Source: Micrococcales bacterium
GTDB lineage: Bacteria; Actinomycetota; Actinomycetes; Actinomycetales; Cellulomonadaceae
Length of the DNA: 12,524 nt
NCBI GenBank assembly: GCA_009783975.1
Contig: WRCL01000019.1
Coordinates: 1-12,524, forward strand
Reading direction: 5' to 3'
Of the stretch, positions 2,682 through 12,524 are shown in pieces. Each line of letters starts with the position of its first letter. Within the stretch, counting starts at the first letter, position 1. A program made the translations under genes and the position numbers. A model generated the notes under the pieces. That model had not been told where the DNA came from. It did not search any database and saw only the letters and a list, made by a program, of their open reading frames with translations.

Positions 2682-4139
2682 TCACCGGACGTCAACCGCC
2701 GGACGTGGCACGGTGCGGTACGCCAAGGCGACGACGAGGTACCCGGCAGCCAGGACGACGAACACAGGTGCCGACCACCCGGTGTCGGGCAGCACGAGCG
2801 CCGCGGCGCCTGCGGCAACGACGAACGCCGCGTTGAACGTCATGTCGTACACGGCGAACGCCCGCCCACGGAACTGGTCGTGGGTGTCGCGCTGGACGAT
2901 CGTGTCCACGGCGATCTTCGTCCCCTGCACCGAGACGCCCAGCAGCACGGCGGCGGCGACGACCGCGCCGAGCCGCGGCCCGGTCGCCAGCACCCCCTGG
3001 CTCGTGGCCCCCACCGCCAGGCACACCATGACCCACCGCGCCGGGTCGGTGTGCACCAGTGGGGTGACCAGCACCGCCAGCCCGTTGCCTGCGAACGACA
3101 CCGCCGCCAGCAGCGCGAAGGTCCGCAGCCCCGCGTCGGCGTCGCCCGGGTCCGACAGCAAGTTCCGGCTCAGCAGCACCAACGCGAGAAAGTTCGCCCC
3201 ATACACGAACCGTTGCGCCCCGATGACCGCCAGCGCCGCACCAGGGGTGCGCCGTGCGAGGAGGTACCGCGCCGCCGCCGCAAGGTCAGCCGACGTCGCG
3301 CGCAGGTCACCACCCAGCGTGCGTGTCCAGTCGGTCCGGGCGTCAGCCGGGGTTGGACGTCGGTCGTCAATCGGAGCCCGGCCCTTCTGCGTCGGGTGTT
3401 GGCTCGTGTGGTGTCCGAGGGGGTCGGCCGGGGTGTCACAGCCGTCCGCGCGATCACCGTCGCCCACCGGTCTGTCGCTGCGCCGTCTGTCCGGACCAAG
3501 CTGGCCGGGCCCCAGGCGCAGCGCGAGCAGCGCAGCGGCCCCGAACACGGCTGCGGCGCCAGCCAACGTCCACCCGTTGCGGACGGTCCCCGCGGGCAAC
3601 AACCGCCCGACGACGAACCCGACCGTGGCCCCCGTGACCGCGGCGACCGCCCCCAGCGTCGGTGTCAGCGAGTTCGCGGTGAGCAGCAGCGGTGCTGGCA
3701 CGACCAGCGGCTGCCCGGCCGACAGCGCCGACAGCAAGAACCGGTTGACCCCCAAGACCACCAGCGCGAGCACATACACCGCCACGCCCACCCCCGTCGT
3801 GGCGATGACCACAGCGAGCACCCCCGTGAGCACCATCCGCACCAGGTTCGCCACGAGCAGCACCTGGCGCCGCCTCCACCGGTCGAGCAACGGCCCGGCG
3901 AACGGCCCGACGACGGTGAACGGCACGAGCAGCACCGCGAACGCCCCAGCGACCCCCGCCGCCGTCGTCATCTGTTCTGGCGAGAAGAAGAACAGTGTCG
4001 CCAGCCCCACCTGGAACACCCCGTCCCCCGCCTGCGAGACGACCCGCACAGTGAACAACCGCCGGAACCCGGACGTGCGCAACAACGCCCCCAGGTCCGC
4101 CACGACCGGGACCCGCACACCGAACCTGCCACGCACCAC
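2682..4139 (-). CDS. MFS transporter, probable exporter
   Basis: A 485-residue, strongly hydrophobic protein of the major facilitator superfamily, placed in the cytoplasmic membrane. About twelve hydrophobic stretches fall into two halves (about 25-207 and 290-475). MFS motif A is visible between TM2 and TM3 (GPFAGPLLDRWRRRQ, 78-92). In the C-terminal half, VDTIVQRDTHDQFRGRAFAVY (about 411-431) corresponds to the loop seen in drug- and siderophore-exporter-like MFS proteins of actinobacteria. The central cytoplasmic loop (about 208-290) is long, arginine/aspartate/proline-rich and low in complexity. Substrate cannot be inferred. GTG 4139 is used because a TAGCCT box ends six bases before it, suggesting a leaderless message; GTG 4136, one codon on, has GGAG five bases upstream. 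The gene ends about 125-155 bases before the PP2C gene, with no convincing terminator between them. Confidence 0.9.
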   Translation of the reverse strand: MVRGRFGVRVPVVADLGALLRTSGFRRLFTVRVVSQAGDGVFQVGLATLFFFSPEQMTTAAGVAGAFAVLLVPFTVVGPFAGPLLDRWRRRQVLLVANLVRMVLTGVLAVVIATTGVGVAVYVLALVVLGVNRFLLSALSAGQPLVVPAPLLLTANSLTPTLGAVAAVTGATVGFVVGRLLPAGTVRNGWTLAGAAAVFGAAALLALRLGPGQLGPDRRRSDRPVGDGDRADGCDTPADPLGHHTSQHPTQKGRAPIDDRRPTPADARTDWTRTLGGDLRATSADLAAAARYLLARRTPGAALAVIGAQRFVYGANFLALVLLSRNLLSDPGDADAGLRTFALLAAVSFAGNGLAVLVTPLVHTDPARWVMVCLAVGATSQGVLATGPRLGAVVAAAVLLGVSVQGTKIAVDTIVQRDTHDQFRGRAFAVYDMTFNAAFVVAAGAAALVLPDTGWSAPVFVVLAAGYLVVALAYRTVPRPAVDVR

Positions 4140-4175: not shown

Positions 4176-4249
4176 CATCGAGCGCCACGGTTCGACGCGA
4201 CAGCCACGGTTCTACCTGCTGCCGTCGATGCGAACCGTGTCCCTCGACG
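4176..4249. repeat. degenerate copy of the palindromic repeat (copy C)
   Basis: Arms 4176-4201 and 4224-4249 match as an inverted repeat at about 20 of 26 positions around a 22-base loop. The right arm shares TCGATGCGAACCG exactly with copy A (5616-5649). The left arm shares CATCGAG and ACGGTTCG with both full copies. GCCACGGTTC is also repeated directly about 19 bases apart, which echoes the 19-base period inside the full copies. I read it as a decayed member of the same family, upstream of the MFS promoter. Confidence 0.6.
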
Positions 4250-4388: not shown

Positions 4389-5519
4389 TCAGGCGCCGAC
4401 ATTGCCGCTGGGAACCGAAGCCCAGCGCAAGGCCAGTCCAGGCGACGGGCGACCGCCGTTGACCAGGCAAGACGCTAGGAGCCGGTCCCATCGTCCTGTT
4501 TCTCGATGTGCCGCTGGGCGCGTTTGAGGGACTCCAGGTAGGCGGTCTCGACGTCGGACGGTTGGTCGTCGAGGCCGGCGCGGTACTCGGTACTCGGTCG
4601 TGGCCTTGTCAACAGCCTCGCGGTGGCTGACGGTGCCGCGCCCCTCGAGGCTCGGGGCGTCCATGGCCACGATGAGGCGGTCCAGGTGTGCCAACCAGTC
4701 GGCCATATATGTCACCTGGTGGTTCTGGGCCCGGAACTCGGCGGCGTCGAAGTACGCCGAGACCAACGTGTTCAGCCGCTGCAGCTCACGTTCGTCCAGG
4801 TAGTTCTTCGCCACGGTCACCTCGGCCTTCGTCGGGCGCTGACCCGTGAACGACAGCAAACCCATGAAGGGCTTGCCCGCGTCGGCCCGTGCGGCGATGA
4901 CCTCCGCTGCGGTGTGCCCGTGCGCCGCGTAGTGCAGCTTGTTCTGCACAGCCGCGAAGAACGTCGTGCTGGTCGGGCTCGCCTGGTCGTAGTCCGCGGA
5001 CGTCGCGTACAAGTCCAGCACTTGTCGGTACAGCACCTTCTCGCTGGACCGGATGTCGCGGATCCGGTCGAGCAGCTCGCGCCAGTACCCCCCACCCCCG
5101 AGCTCCTTGAGCCGCGCGTCATCCATGGCGAACCCTTTGACCAGGTACTCCCGCAGCCGCTGGGTCGCCCAGATCCGGAACTGCGTCCCGCGCAGCGACC
5201 TCACCCGGTACCCCACCGAGATGATCACGTCGAGGTTGTAGTAGGCAACGTCCCGAGACACCTCCCGGGTGCCCTCGGCTTGAACTGTTCGGAATTTCCG
5301 AACAGTTGCCTCCTGCTCCAGCTCGCCCTCGTCGAAGACGTGCCTGATGTGCTCGCTGACGTTGGCCTTGCTCGACCTGAACAGGTCGACCATCTGCGCC
5401 TGCGTCAACCACACGGTCTCGCCGTCGAGGCGGACCGAGATGGCGGGCAGGCCGTCGGCGTCACGCTGGTACAGCAGGATCTCGCTTGGGGTCGCTGGTT
5501 CGCTCATGGAGACCATCAT
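4389..5519 (-). CDS. RhuM-family protein, 3' end frameshifted
   Basis: The N-terminal part carries the RhuM signature: EILLYQ, then DGETVWLTQAQMVDLF (about 32-47), NVSEHIRHVFDEGEL, RDVAYYNLDVIISVGYRV (about 89-106) and FRIWATQRLREYL. The first about 130 residues look like a winged-helix/KilA-N-like DNA-binding region; the rest is helical. The family is named after a Salmonella pathogenicity-island gene; its biochemical role is not established, and members are common in mobile and accessory DNA. The family pattern holds to KATTEYR (residue 311), then a 7-bp tandem duplication (4582-4595) shifts the frame. The product then carries an arginine/proline-rich tail to 376 residues. Removing one copy restores a normal end (ETAYLESLKRAQ..., stop at 4475-4477, about 345 residues). 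ATG 5519 has GGGTGG eight bases upstream; ATG 5507, in frame, resembles the family N-terminus. The gene is divergent from the STAND gene, with palindrome A between them. Confidence 0.88.
   Translation of the reverse strand: MMVSMSEPATPSEILLYQRDADGLPAISVRLDGETVWLTQAQMVDLFRSSKANVSEHIRHVFDEGELEQEATVRKFRTVQAEGTREVSRDVAYYNLDVIISVGYRVRSLRGTQFRIWATQRLREYLVKGFAMDDARLKELGGGGYWRELLDRIRDIRSSEKVLYRQVLDLYATSADYDQASPTSTTFFAAVQNKLHYAAHGHTAAEVIAARADAGKPFMGLLSFTGQRPTKAEVTVAKNYLDERELQRLNTLVSAYFDAAEFRAQNHQVTYMADWLAHLDRLIVAMDAPSLEGRGTVSHREAVDKATTEYRVPRRPRRPTVRRRDRLPGVPQTRPAAHRETGRWDRLLASCLVNGGRPSPGLALRWASVPSGNVGA
4582..4595 (-). repeat. 7-bp tandem duplication causing frameshift in the RhuM gene
   Basis: The coding strand reads GAGTACC twice in a row. 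With one copy, ACC GAG TAC CGC GCC continues as a sensible RhuM C-terminus ending at TAG 4477-4475. With two copies the reading moves to a non-homologous frame ending at 4389. Seven bases is not a multiple of three, so gain or loss of a unit toggles the C-terminus. Confidence 0.85.
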
Positions 5520-5575
5520 GGCGGTGACCACCCACGCCGCTCTCGCATCTCGTACGCCCTTGCTTCCGCATGAAC

Positions 5576-5649
5576 CATCGAGGTCAACGGTTCGCGTCGA
5601 GGTCAACGTGTCTATACGTTGACCTCGATGCGAACCGTTGACCTCGATG
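5576..5649. repeat. large palindromic repeat, copy A
   Basis: Two 34-base arms (5576-5609 and 5616-5649) flank a 6-base loop (GTCTAT). They match at 33 of 34 positions, and the single mismatch (G5596 opposite T5629) would be a G-U pair in plus-strand RNA. Each arm contains the 12-mer TCGAGGTCAACG twice at a 19-base period, joined by GTTCGC, so the whole element carries four copies. It lies in the 189-base divergent gap, 56 bases from the RhuM start and 59 from the STAND start. It could be a regulatory site, an insulating hairpin, or the end of a mobile cassette. Confidence 0.93.
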
Positions 5650-5696
5650 CTTCACGTGCAGCCAGGCTCATCCTGGAGTCGCCGCGCAACGCTGAC

Positions 5697-5702
5697 TAGG
5701 GT
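5697..5702 (+). promoter_or_regulatory. -10 box (TAGGGT) for the STAND gene, leaderless arrangement
   Basis: TAGGGT is followed by exactly six bases and then ATG 5709. AGGG within the same box could alternatively act as a ribosome site at seven bases. The -35 region (near 5673-5679, TGGAG) is weak. A short inverted repeat CCAGG/CCTGG (5662-5676) lies just upstream. Confidence 0.45.
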
Positions 5703-5708
5703 TGTCGC

Positions 5709-8357
5709 ATGAGCGTCGGTGCTGGTGGGGTCCGCTTGGGGCTGCGTTGGCGCTGGTGGCTGTGGGGTGGGTGGGCACTGTTGGCGGGTGGGGCCGCAGC
5801 GGCGTGGGTGGCGAGCTCAGAGTCGGCGAAGACCGTCGTTGTGCTGTGGACCTCGATGCCGCTGGCGGTGCTGGCGCTGGCGCTCGCAGTGGTGCCGTTG
5901 GTCGGGCGGGTGCGGCCCGAGGCGCCGGGCGGGCTGGTGCGGGTGCTCGTGGGCAACCCGCCGCGTCGACCCCCGGCGTTCCAGCCGCGCAGGCGCTACC
6001 GCGAGCGGATCGACGCGGCGTGGGGCAGCTCGGCAACAGTGGTGCTGTCGCACACGCAGGTGCTGCACGGCGACGGTGGGGTGGGTAAGTCCCAGCTCGC
6101 CAGGGAGTGCTACGAGGGGTCCGACGCGCAGGTCAAGGTGTGGGTCGACGCGTCGAGCATCGACGGGATCGTCACCGCGTGCTCGCGGGCGGCGACGGCG
6201 GTCGGCCGTGAGCACATGGGGGTGGACGCCGCCGAGACCAACGCCGTGGTGCTCGCCGAGGCGTTCAGGCAGTGGCTGCGGACCGCGACGTCGTGGCTGG
6301 TGGTCTTCGACGACCTGGACGTCGAACCGGACGCCCTGGAACGCTGGTGGCCGTCGGGTCCGGGCCAGGTCCTGGTCACCACGCGCCGCGACGACATCGG
6401 GTACGAGGTGTTCTTCCGCGTCGACGACGTCGTCGACCTTGACGTGTTCAGCGCAGACGAAGCGGAGACCTACGTCGCCGAACGGCTCGCCCCGTACACC
6501 GCCACGATGCCCGCCGGCGCCCTCGACGAGGTCGGCGCCCTGGTCCAGGCCCTGGGCTACCACCCTGTGGCGCTCAACCAGGCGACCGCTGTGGCCATCG
6601 ACGAAAAGCTCACCACTGCGGGCTACCTCGCCCGGTTCTGCGACCGCACCCGGACCTTGTCCGACGTGCTCGCCCAAGCCGATATCGCCTACGACCGCCG
6701 CACCGTCGCCGCGACCTGGTCCATCGCCTTGGACCGCGCCGCGACCCACTGTGACCATGCCGGCGCGATGGCCGTCTTGGTCTCGGTGGCCCACCCCACC
6801 GCCACGCCGCGCTGCTTGTTCACCACCGCCGCGGCCCGCCGGTACCTGTGCGACCACGGCGAGCCGGACGCCGACGCGGCGTTACGTGCGCTGGAACGGG
6901 TCGCCCTGGTCCGTCTTGGCCCGCAGGCGTGGGACCCGGTCGCTGTGCACGCCCTGGCCCAGCGCGCGATCGGCGACCTGGCCGCTGACCGGTCCGGCGC
7001 CATCGTCGCGCTGGCCGACGCTGCCGTCGACGTGTGGCCTGACAGCAACCTCGACCTGGTCGAAGGCCCACAGCTGCGCAGCGTCGTGGAGCACCTGTGG
7101 TCGGTGGGCGAACCGGCGCTCCTGGCTGACGGGATCCACGCTGCGCTGTTCCGCGCGGGGCGGTCGGTCGCGCAGAGCGGCGCTGTGAAGGAGGCGGTGG
7201 TCTACCACAAGGCCCTGCTCGTGGCGTCACGACGTGCGATGGGACCCGACCACCGCGACACCCTGCGCGCCTGGAACCACTTCGCCTGGTGGCTGGGCGA
7301 GACCGGTGACACGTTCGGGGCGGTGCGCGAGCTTGAGCAGCTGTTGACCGAGTACCGCGGGACGCACGGCGACGACCACCACGACATCATGCTCGCCCGC
7401 AACGAGCTCGCGTACTACCTCGCCGAGGCAGGCGACGTGCGCAACGCCGTGGAGTTTCTCGACACGGTCCTGGCCGACCGGGTGCGCACCCTCGGGCCCG
7501 ACGACCCCGAGACGCTGGTCACACGGTCGTACCACGCGCGGTTGCGCGGCAAGGCCGGCGACGCGCTCGGTGCGGTGCACGAGCTGGAGCAGGTGCTCGC
7601 CGCCACCATCGCCGTCCTGGGGCCCGACCACCCCAGGACGCTGTCGGTGCGTCAGCACGCAGCCGAGCTCCGTGCCAAGTCCGGTGACGTCCCGCGCGCG
7701 CTGCGTGACCTTCAGGCGGTGCGCGCTGACCGGGTACGGGTGCTCGGGCGCGACCACCCCGGAACCTTGAAGACCCGGCGGAGCATCGCCCGGTGGCACG
7801 GAGAGGCCGGCGACCTGGCCCGCGCGGTGCCAGAGATGGAAGCAGTCCTGGCCGACACGGTCCGTATCATGGGCAAAGACCATCCTGCGACCTTGAAGAC
7901 CCGCGGGATCCTCGCAGGGTGGCGCGGCCGCGCTGGGGACCCGGCCGCGGCCGTGCGCGAGCTTGATGGGCTGCTCGCCGACAGCACGCGCGTGTTCGGC
8001 CGCGACCACCCCGAGATCCTCACCACCCGGCACCATCTGGCTTGGTGGACCGGTGAGGCCGGTGACCCCGCGGGGGCTGTGCGTGAGCTGGCCGACGTCC
8101 TGCGCGACGCCGTCGACGTGTTCGGACGCGACCACCGCGAAACCTTGACGATCCGCTACCGCCTCGCCTGGTGGACCGGTGAGGCCGGCGACGCCCCCAC
8201 CGCCGTCGACCAGCTGTGGAGCGTCCTGGCCGACCGCCTGCACGTCCTGGGCGGCACAGACCCGCAGACCACCGCCACCCGCGAGGCCATCACGCACTGG
8301 TCAGCGACGGCGTGCCGCGACCATCGAGGTCAACGGTTCGCGTCGAGGTCAACGTAA
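5709..8357 (+). CDS. membrane-anchored STAND NTPase (2 TM, NB-ARC, TPR repeats)
   Basis: 882 residues. Two hydrophobic helices lie at about 14-36 and 43-66, so the N-terminus is probably a membrane hairpin. NB-ARC-type NTPase about 95-345: P-loop GDGGVGKS (121-128), Walker B WLVVFDDLD (196-204), sensor-like VLVTTRR (221-227) and GYHPVAL (283-289). A helical region to about 490 is followed by TPRs of the kinesin-light-chain/TPR_10-12 type. The motif [LMF]GxDHPxTL recurs nine times at exactly 42 residues (511, 553, 595, 637, 679, 721, 763, 805, 847), alternating with AWWxGEAGD-like segments. STAND proteins are NTP-driven switches in which the repeats sense a ligand and release an N-terminal effector; here the only visible effector candidate is the TM hairpin. 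No TIR, nuclease or protease domain is visible. The last eleven residues and the first base of the stop codon lie inside palindrome copy B. A defence or signalling role is inferred, not shown. Confidence 0.9.
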   Translation: MSVGAGGVRLGLRWRWWLWGGWALLAGGAAAAWVASSESAKTVVVLWTSMPLAVLALALAVVPLVGRVRPEAPGGLVRVLVGNPPRRPPAFQPRRRYRERIDAAWGSSATVVLSHTQVLHGDGGVGKSQLARECYEGSDAQVKVWVDASSIDGIVTACSRAATAVGREHMGVDAAETNAVVLAEAFRQWLRTATSWLVVFDDLDVEPDALERWWPSGPGQVLVTTRRDDIGYEVFFRVDDVVDLDVFSADEAETYVAERLAPYTATMPAGALDEVGALVQALGYHPVALNQATAVAIDEKLTTAGYLARFCDRTRTLSDVLAQADIAYDRRTVAATWSIALDRAATHCDHAGAMAVLVSVAHPTATPRCLFTTAAARRYLCDHGEPDADAALRALERVALVRLGPQAWDPVAVHALAQRAIGDLAADRSGAIVALADAAVDVWPDSNLDLVEGPQLRSVVEHLWSVGEPALLADGIHAALFRAGRSVAQSGAVKEAVVYHKALLVASRRAMGPDHRDTLRAWNHFAWWLGETGDTFGAVRELEQLLTEYRGTHGDDHHDIMLARNELAYYLAEAGDVRNAVEFLDTVLADRVRTLGPDDPETLVTRSYHARLRGKAGDALGAVHELEQVLAATIAVLGPDHPRTLSVRQHAAELRAKSGDVPRALRDLQAVRADRVRVLGRDHPGTLKTRRSIARWHGEAGDLARAVPEMEAVLADTVRIMGKDHPATLKTRGILAGWRGRAGDPAAAVRELDGLLADSTRVFGRDHPEILTTRHHLAWWTGEAGDPAGAVRELADVLRDAVDVFGRDHRETLTIRYRLAWWTGEAGDAPTAVDQLWSVLADRLHVLGGTDPQTTATREAITHWSATACRDHRGQRFASRST

Positions 8358-8395
8358 AGACACGTTGACCTCGACGCGAACCGTTGACCTCGATG
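8322..8395. repeat. large palindromic repeat, copy B (perfect)
   Basis: Arms 8322-8355 and 8362-8395 are perfect 34-base reverse complements around a different 6-base loop (AAAGAC). The left arm is identical to copy A's, and the right arm differs from A's by one base. Short flanks also match (AC before; GATGCnTCAC at the right). The left arm is translated as the end of the STAND protein, and the stop codon TAA spans arm and loop. It sits between two convergent genes and could act as a bidirectional terminator, though no T-run follows it. Confidence 0.95.
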
Positions 8396-8428: not shown

Positions 8429-8449
8429 TGACCCCGGGTGACGGGGTCA
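8429..8449 (-). terminator. hairpin at the flotillin stop codon
   Basis: TGACCCCG (8429-8436) pairs with CGGGGTCA (8442-8449) around a 5-base loop. On the minus strand the flotillin stop TGA opens the stem. No T-tract follows, so this is a terminator-like hairpin without the classical tail. Together with palindrome B it separates the convergent transcripts. Confidence 0.5.
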
Positions 8450-9898
8450 GGCTTGCTGTGTGGGGGCTGGGGCGGCGGCGGTTCCGGCGTTGCGGAGCAG
8501 GGCTGACAGGTCCAGGCCGGTGAGGCTGTGCAGGACGCCGGGAAGCTCACCTGCGACCTGGGAGACGGTCTTGGTGACGGCTGAGGCGCCGTCGGTCGAC
8601 ACGACAGTGAGGTGGTCGATCGCACCCAGGGGGGTGGCGATCGCTTTGGCGATCTCAGGCAGGCGGGCGATGATCTCGGTGGCCAGGGCCGCGTCGCCAT
8701 ACTTCTTCAGGGCTTCGGCTTTGGCGTCGGTCGCGGTCGCCTCGGCCAGGCCCTCGGCGGCGATGGCGGCGGCGCGGGCTTCACCCTCGGCTTTGATACC
8801 GGCGGCCTGGGCGACCTGGCGGTCACGGTCGGCGATACCAGCCAGGCGGACCGCGGCGGCTGCGGCTTCGGCGTCCTGGACGGCGGCGACCTTGTTGGCC
8901 TCGGCGACCTTCTGGCGTTTGTAGGCCTCGGCTTCGGTGGCGGCGTTCGCGGCGTCGCGGCGGGCCTGTGCTTCTTGGACCGCGGCGTACGCGTCAGCCT
9001 CGGCGGGTTTGCGGATCTCGATGTCCAGGCGCTCTTGTTCGACGCGGGCCTTCTCGACCAGGGCCTCGCGCTCCTCGGCGGCGACGAGGCGGTCCTGCTC
9101 GGCTTTGGCGAGCTGGCCGGCGGCGTTCGCCTCGGCGTCGGCGCGGTCAGTCTCGGCCTTGATCGCGGCTTGTTTCAGGGCCAGGGCCTTGCGGCGCTCG
9201 GCGACCTGCTCGGTGGCCTCGATACGGGCGAACTCGGCAGCGCGGGCAGTCTCAGCCTCTTTGATCTCGGCGTACTGGCGGGCCAGGGCGGCTTCGCCGC
9301 GGCCCAGGTCGGCCAGGTATGTCGTGCCGGGGGTGGAGATGTCAGAGATGTTCAGCAGGTCAACCTGCAGGCCCTGCTCGGCCAGGTCGACCTTCGTCGC
9401 CTCGACGACACCCTCAGACAGCGCGGTGCGGTTGGAGATGATCTCCTGCACCGGCATGTTGCCGATGATCGAGCGCAGCGACCCTTCCAAGGACTGCTGG
9501 ATGATCTGGTTCAACGACGCCTGCTGGCTCAAGAAACGCTGGGCGGCGCGCCGCACGCCCTCAGTGGTGCCCGAGACCTTGAAGTTCACCGACGCCTGGA
9601 TCGCGAGCTTGATGAAGTTCTTGTCCACGCCCTCGACGCTGATGGCGATCTGGCGCTGCTCCAGCGACACGGCGAACCCCTGCTGGATGACCGGCCAGAC
9701 GAACGTGCGCCCACCGATGACGACTTTCTGCCCGCCGTCCTCAGTCTCACGTTCGCGGGCCCCGCGCCCGACGATCACCAGGGCCTGGTTCGGCGGCACA
9801 CGTTTGATCCGGCTGGCGATAAACCCGCCGAGGGCCAGCACGACGACGAACAGCACGACGACCGCAGCGATGATGACGGTGTCAGAGTATGAATCCAC
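8447..9898 (-). CDS. flotillin-family SPFH/band 7 membrane scaffold protein
   Basis: 483 residues, near the usual size for bacterial flotillins (FloT/YuaG). An N-terminal membrane helix (about 7-29) is followed by the SPFH/PHB domain (about 33-195: VPPNQALVIVGRG, TFVWPVIQQGFAVSLEQRQI, NMPVQEIISNR, GLQVDLLNISDI). A long alanine/glutamate-rich coiled coil (about 200-400) has the family's EA-repeat character. The end is ATPLGAIDHLTVVS followed by a short Ala/Pro/Gln tail. Flotillins oligomerise on the inner face of the membrane and organise functional microdomains. GTG 9898 is used; a purine-rich AAGGAAAGAG lies upstream (9905-9914). The gene lies 36 bases after the nfeD-like gene on the same strand, the usual arrangement for this pair. 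Confidence 0.96.
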   Translation of the reverse strand: MDSYSDTVIIAAVVVLFVVVLALGGFIASRIKRVPPNQALVIVGRGARERETEDGGQKVVIGGRTFVWPVIQQGFAVSLEQRQIAISVEGVDKNFIKLAIQASVNFKVSGTTEGVRRAAQRFLSQQASLNQIIQQSLEGSLRSIIGNMPVQEIISNRTALSEGVVEATKVDLAEQGLQVDLLNISDISTPGTTYLADLGRGEAALARQYAEIKEAETARAAEFARIEATEQVAERRKALALKQAAIKAETDRADAEANAAGQLAKAEQDRLVAAEEREALVEKARVEQERLDIEIRKPAEADAYAAVQEAQARRDAANAATEAEAYKRQKVAEANKVAAVQDAEAAAAAVRLAGIADRDRQVAQAAGIKAEGEARAAAIAAEGLAEATATDAKAEALKKYGDAALATEIIARLPEIAKAIATPLGAIDHLTVVSTDGASAVTKTVSQVAGELPGVLHSLTGLDLSALLRNAGTAAAPAPTQQA

Positions 9899-12438: not shown

Positions 12439-12505
12439 GGGCGGTTGAGCCTTCTGCTTGGGTCGGGCGGGGGGCGGGTGAGCCTTCCTGCTTGGGTCGG
12501 GCCCG
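12439..12505. repeat. G-rich imperfect tandem repeat after the antiporter gene
   Basis: Two units of 33-34 bases (from 12439 and 12472) share TGAGCCTT and TGCTTGGGTCGGGC; the second has one extra C. The G-runs at 12460-12478 (GGG, GGG, GGGGGG, GGG with loops of 2, 1 and 1) fit a G-quadruplex pattern. It lies just downstream of the stop codon and may affect termination. No hairpin with a T-run is visible up to the window edge. Confidence 0.6.
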
Positions 12506-12524
12506 GCGGGGGGCACCAGTTCTG

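Follow-up and report, generated by a model that had tools for sequence, protein, structure and literature searches.

In integrons, attC sites are hairpin sites that lie beside single accessory genes, TA genes included, and MITEs and mobile insertion cassettes are non-autonomous elements with inverted ends around a passenger gene. REPs are dispersed repeats found downstream of coding regions, where they sometimes supply the stop codon; they form many families, with stems of 5–13 bp and a GTAG or CGTC tag, and the available part of the source describing them names no actinobacterial GTAG or CGTC family, and the word actinobacteria is absent from that source (PMC3733652). Here, we analyzed a 12,524-nt stretch of DNA (the window) from a draft assembly of a Micrococcales bacterium (the host; 68% complete, 430 contigs), in which a STAND-type gene lies between two long palindromes, A and B. 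Both palindromes belong to a REP-like class that is scattered over the genome and has a geometry of its own.

The STAND gene and its two palindromes

The order of the locus is MFS, D, RhuM, A, STAND, B and flotillin, as given below; genes were called by a simple composition script, and their starts and some contexts are rough.

2682–4139, minus strand: MFS transporter gene, the conserved anchor on the side of the site opposite to flotillin
4176–4247, no strand assigned: D, a decayed relative of A, between RhuM and MFS
4389–5507, minus strand: RhuM-family gene (PF13310; PADLOC candidate PDC-S05)
5576–5649 (core; extended 5571–5654), plus strand: palindrome A, arms of 34 bp around a GTCTAT loop, in the gap from which RhuM (minus) and STAND (plus) diverge
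5709–8357, plus strand: STAND-type gene, NB-ARC and TPR, 882 aa
8322–8395, minus strand: palindrome B, arms of 34 bp around a GTCTTT loop (in minus-strand reading), where the STAND and flotillin genes converge
8447–9898, minus strand: flotillin/SPFH gene, the conserved anchor at this end of the site

The preliminary description had reported A and B as palindromes with 34-bp arms and different loops. The palindromes are real, with identical left arms, right arms one base apart and 6-nt loops. As read along the window, the loops are indeed GTCTAT and AAAGAC, but they look different because the palindromes sit on opposite strands, and after reversing B the pair becomes GTCTAT and GTCTTT; the latter loop is also present in two further copies (C7 and C105). 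The palindromy of A continues to 5571–5654, with 37 of 39 positions paired. A and B are identical at 72 of 74 positions in the inverted orientation and at 68 of 74 in the direct one. The two face each other, and excision of the gene, for which they had been thought suitable, would need the weaker direct pairing and was thus not supported; judged from the sequence, their arrangement speaks for a recombination that would favor inversion over excision.

When folded as single-stranded DNA, A reached −45.9 kcal/mol (shuffle mean −11.9, z −16) and B −47.5 kcal/mol (z −15), and none of 200 shuffles was equally stable for either hairpin. The third element, D, showed 71% identity to A and 83% over 72 nt to a copy on contig C72 of the relative G004; D and A had further weak partial matches on a different contig of that genome, and the D hairpin was of no significant stability in the folding test (z −1.6). 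At gathering scores, the window was without a match in Rfam. The contig end GTCGGGCCCGGCGGGGGGCACCAGTTC (12496–12522) was partly repeated on another contig, L060, at 3030–3053 and, inverted, at 5606–5629.

The palindromes bracket one gene with tight spacing, as first described: the STAND ATG at 5709 lies 59 bases past A, and the stop codon (8355–8357) falls within B. The coding sequence overlaps B by 36 nt, the left arm of B encoding in the STAND frame the final 11 residues and the stop codon, and the alignment with the closest STAND relative stops at residue 870, just short of B. Against NCBIfam FxSxx_TPR the protein scored 286 bits, under the cut-off of 300, and it may be a relative of the TPR proteins of FxSxx-COOH systems.

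Dispersal and arm plan of the palindromes

The A/B family was labeled P1. An 84-bp query of A found 18 places on 14 contigs of the host genome that covered at least 59 of the 84 bases (E up to 0.09), with shorter fragments beyond these, indicating that A and B have further relatives in the genome. When two mismatches at most were allowed, the motif GAGGTCAACGGTTCGC was matched 38 times in the host genome and its reversed control once. Most P1 copies bracketed nothing obvious. The preliminary description had named, as the finding that would speak against it, an ordinary REP-like repeat at hundreds of unrelated sites; the dispersal was borne out, at a copy number of 18 and not hundreds. The family was nearly absent from relatives: 4 of 57 other genomes had a match at E 0.001, which was nearly full length only in G004. 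An exact 23-base motif had no match in the genome_contigs collection, from which near records may be omitted. In plasmid and phage searches, A was also without a match, and the plasmid search matched one family-12 and one family-1 palindrome. Contig C123 terminates inside a palindrome copy, and misjoining of contigs at repeats is a risk in a 430-contig draft.

The census of the wider class used an arm cut-off of 24 and covered 40 long contigs of the host and stretches of two relatives (G004 and G083). Palindromes with arms of at least 24 numbered 28 in 494 kb of the host, 16 in 480 kb of G004 and 30 in 452 kb of G083; none was found in 60 kb of G084, and first-order Markov versions of the 1.49 Mb of host and relatives also contained none. 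Arms were 25–54 bp long, shorter ones lying outside a scan with this cut-off, and loops measured 0–14 nt. With the contigs chosen for P1 included, 95 palindromes were grouped by sequence into 28 clusters, of which 11 had a single member and four were common to more than one genome.

Many families of unrelated sequence had the same plan, in which each arm is made of two direct repeats 19 nt apart, giving four inward-facing half-sites per palindrome; in some families, the direct repeats peaked at lag 20 rather than 19. The mean lag-19 match of the 28 cluster representatives was 0.583, compared with 0.273 for shuffled arms (maximum of 500 shuffles, 0.352), and it was at least 0.5 in 18 of the 28 clusters, with other lags at 0.21–0.39. 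A geometry common to unlike sequences, in these 18 clusters and three species, suggests one mechanism with fast-changing specificity. No 19-nt period was detected in family 2 (GGGGACGGTTCC; e.g., L098 9487–9581 and L185 8446–12658). This was the most abundant family and was present in the stretches of all three genomes, with counts of 46, 25 and 3.

Eight palindromes with arms of at least 24, three of them with a strong 19-nt period, were found in 200 kb of a further relative, G028, a sample in which one of ten stretches had been picked for its P1-like match. G036 had two palindromes in 100 kb, one of which lay inside a gene and had a lag-19 match of 0.67; neither 100 kb of G003 nor 137 kb of other Microbacteriaceae-type loci contained any with arms of at least 24. 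The literature that we searched, a partial coverage that does not prove absence, held no report of this palindrome architecture.

The locus in relatives and the position of palindromes at gene ends

On contig C54 of G083, the counterparts of the flotillin gene (87% identical to that of the window) and of the MFS gene (74%) are separated by a single family-5 palindrome only, with SpoIIE-type genes beyond, the same as in the window. The RhuM-STAND block is missing at this locus, and homologues of both genes lie elsewhere in G083. An empty site with one palindrome and no STAND gene had been proposed as a check, and this locus supplied it in part: RhuM and STAND are absent and one palindrome is present, but it belongs to another family, so exchange between like copies would be conjectural there. 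Because flotillin on one side and MFS-SpoIIE on the other are conserved, the outer joins of the RhuM-STAND block are unlikely to be assembly errors. In G004, a different small palindrome (arms of 18 bp, by eye) and other genes come after flotillin.

Among six STAND homologues of G083, G004 and G084, five had no palindrome (arms of at least 15) within 500 bp, one of these five being cut by a contig end, and the sixth had a palindrome on one side. A STAND-specific association of palindromes was rejected, as it was not seen in these homologues; in G004 (L141), the stop codon of the STAND gene at 6854 and the palindrome at 7771 are about 900 bp apart. The three RhuM loci examined in relatives had no palindrome within 600 bp.

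Two further loci could be compared. In the host, the genes after gene Y are a type II RM pair enclosed by family-5 palindromes; in G004, their place is taken by a PIN-type pair enclosed by a full and a short family-4 element. The family-5 copies share flanking letters, so that a local duplication is possible. An AbiEi-like gene on host contig C242 is bracketed by P1 copies, and its G004 homologue (83% at the nucleotide level, contig C72) lies 12 nt from the nearly full-length P1 match of G004, the only one there at E 0.001, aside from the weaker partial matches in that genome noted above. Both neighbors of the host gene were found on G004 contig C31, about 4 kb apart and rearranged.

Nine orthologous gene ends were compared. 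Four carried a palindrome of another family: those of flotillin (G083), gene Y (G004), the gene after the RM pair (G083) and the gene before the AbiEi-like gene (G004), with two family assignments made by eye (family 7 in L278 and family 10 in L286). In the other five comparisons, the cut-offs applied gave no palindrome: for the gene preceding the AbiEi-like gene (G083), the gene following it (G004 and G083), gene X ahead of gene Y (G004) and a G004 palindrome that lacks a host counterpart.

Within tandem gaps, the upstream stop was nearer than the next start for 22 of 31 palindromes, with medians of 23 nt past the stop and 79 nt ahead of the start. In convergent gaps, most of the 15 palindromes had a stop no more than a few tens of bases away, and divergent gaps, such as that of A, held 8 of the 54 intergenic palindromes of the census. 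The palindromes could act at gene ends as transcription terminators or insulators that turnover renews and that also fence off accessory modules, and their place some 20 nt past stops, as well as the other-family palindromes at four of nine orthologous ends, would fit this role. Against it, at least six T within 10 nt beyond the stem were found in 1 of 190 flanks, a criterion that addresses T-tract terminators only, and the flanks were not T-rich; neither A nor B was called as a full-stem terminator, with one partial site within B where 0.7 were expected; and A and the eight census palindromes lie in divergent gaps. We regard this explanation as unlikely.

Same-family neighbors, enclosed genes and comparison with known systems

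Adjacency was analyzed with 166 elements on 87 stretches picked regardless of palindromes (the 40 longest remaining host contigs, 24 stretches of G004 and 23 of G083), taking neighbors 250–4500 bp apart and shuffling labels within each genome. The P1-selected contigs (the window and L057–L076) were excluded, and the L161 pair fell outside the count because a family-2 element lies in between. Same-family neighbors numbered 23 over all families, against 12.9 expected (p = 0.0012). Without family 2, there were 12 against 3.3 (p = 0.0002); without families 2 and 7, 9 against 3.0 (p = 0.0016); and without family 2, an IS-split palindrome, L109 and one possible-duplicate copy of L161, 9 against 2.9 (p = 0.0007). 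An earlier test with 74 strict palindromes gave 8 against 2.8 within 4 kb (p = 0.0045), 9 against 4.8 within 8 kb (p = 0.049) and 11 against 5.2 within 20 kb (p = 0.016), the effect being weaker at longer range. A and B are closest to each other, but a pair member had its partner as nearest relative at no more than 13 of 40 pair ends, and paired insertion as a general rule was not supported on this count.

Between same-family pairs other than those of family 2, 9 of the 27 genes scanned were TA, RM, Abi-like or STAND genes, compared with 1 of 20 random genes, and that one lay itself inside such a pair (Fisher p = 0.02). These labels are family matches by sequence, and the 27 genes include three P1-selected pairs (window, L062 and L065) and one of five genes each of L095 and L215, and exclude one L109 gene, the whole L064 pair and all family-2 pairs. 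In L062 (715–1826), PIN and Phd/YefM genes lie between two family-1 copies, with a P1 palindrome inside, and the two copies have 21 bp of downstream flank in common, which would fit a duplication of this flank together with part of the palindrome. L161 (4563–7498) holds a type II methyltransferase and a restriction enzyme between two family-5 palindromes, and same-family pairs enclose PemK and DUF222-HNH genes in L157, a PIN gene (below the Pfam cut-off) with a small partner in L195, and AbiEi-like genes in L065 and, weaker, in L106, both matches below Pfam cut-offs. A PIN gene also lies between two P1 copies in L066, outside the automated list. Three of the nine unbiased pairs that make up the filtered adjacency set (L106, L157 and L195) carry TA or Abi-like genes and the remaining ones ordinary or unassigned genes, which lowers confidence that the palindromes are anchors for incoming genes. 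Ordinary genes within pairs included purine-synthesis (L209), dCTP deaminase (L100) and SCP (L213) genes, and family-2 pairs enclosed, among others, PIN (L178), HTH (L147), HAD hydrolase (L101) and GCV_T (L163) genes. Separately, a second host RhuM gene (L294/L133, G000 C300) was seen to be flanked on its two sides by a palindrome related to family 13 and by a new one.

The dispersal, the common plan, the position 3′ of stops, the same-family adjacency and the relative's locus without the block together point to A and B as copies of a scattered hairpin family that may have served as homologous anchors through which the enclosed gene was gained, a reading that we hold to have about an even chance of being correct. 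The repeats would multiply like REPs, as non-autonomous elements, and recombination of an incoming copy with a resident one from its own family would add or remove a small module; the module would then sit at the 3′ end of a gene, where harm would be little. In this sense, the cassette boundary suggested in the preliminary description gained support from the G083 site, the adjacency and the TA, RM and Abi-like genes in between. The other reading is that these are ordinary REP-like repeats with no role in gene movement and that A and B bracket the STAND gene by chance, palindromes and accessory genes sharing tolerant gaps. It would agree with the copies dispersed in unrelated gaps, many of them single, with the pairs around housekeeping genes and with a 3′-end placement that matches the one reported for REPs in the available part of PMC3733652. 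Such a repeat had been expected to show no association with gain or loss of the enclosed gene; here, same-family neighbors exceeded label shuffles that keep every position, and the enclosed modules had the TA, RM, Abi-like and STAND content given above. This reading is possible, and we find it rather doubtful.

Searches with the IS21 helper, the Y1 transposase and one IS481 protein tied no mobility gene to the palindromes. For the IS21 helper (PF01695), the host gave two matches, one over the cut-off within a 688-codon frame and a second, in a 324-codon frame, that fell short of it. Y1_Tnp (RAYT) was found once in G004 and not at all in the assembled 68% of the host, G083, G084, G008 or G093. 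In G083 (L201 15943–17649), an IS481 gene lies between family-10 arms that form a 41-bp inverted repeat; this element has its own TGT ends and its own GACATNGGTGACAG repeats, and 16 nt of the palindrome recur on either side of it (by eye). IS481 was accordingly rejected as the mobilizer, being an insertion into a family-10 palindrome with a 16-nt repeated target. That the palindromes are transposon ends, MITE-like remnants moved by a DDE or tyrosine transposase, would be in keeping with the direct repeats in their arms, which are like transposase sites, and with the two family-10 arms around the IS481 gene; but that element was inserted with ends of its own, no homologue of it was found at E 1e-15 in the host, G004 or G084, Y1_Tnp was present in one of six genomes, the host not among them, and loops of 0–14 nt leave little space between ends. 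We consider this origin highly improbable. The paired mobile element of the preliminary description likewise found no backing, as the family is dispersed, most copies bracket nothing obvious and the few searches tied no mobility gene to it.

An extension of the anchor reading, which we regard as a long shot, is that a putative trans-acting recombinase or replicase would recognize the hairpins with four half-sites and a 19-nt period and shuffle small TA, restriction and defense modules between 3′-end slots, with species-specific families of sites, much like an integron without an array. If the link with TA, RM and Abi-like genes holds in better genomes, it would offer a testable route for the exchange of small immunity-type genes between fixed chromosomal slots, and, if true, this route would be actinobacterial and without a visible transposase.

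With MITEs and mobile insertion cassettes, the palindromes share non-autonomy and inverted ends around a passenger gene; they differ in that each end is here a full palindrome, no transposase with these ends was found (the IS481 case was tested) and no target duplication was noticed at A or B. With integrons, they share a place beside single accessory genes, TA genes among them, and they differ in being near-perfect palindromes scattered over contigs with no array. The likeness is also to REPs and REPINs, as the A/B class likewise consists of dispersed, extragenic, multi-copy hairpins in many families, often just past genes. In contrast to these, no GTAG or CGTC tag was seen by eye at the palindrome ends, no Y1_Tnp gene accompanies them in the assembled part of the host or in G083, the stems measure 34 bp in A and B (25–54 bp in the class) as against 5–13 bp in the available part of PMC3733652, and many arms carry the 19-nt direct repeat.
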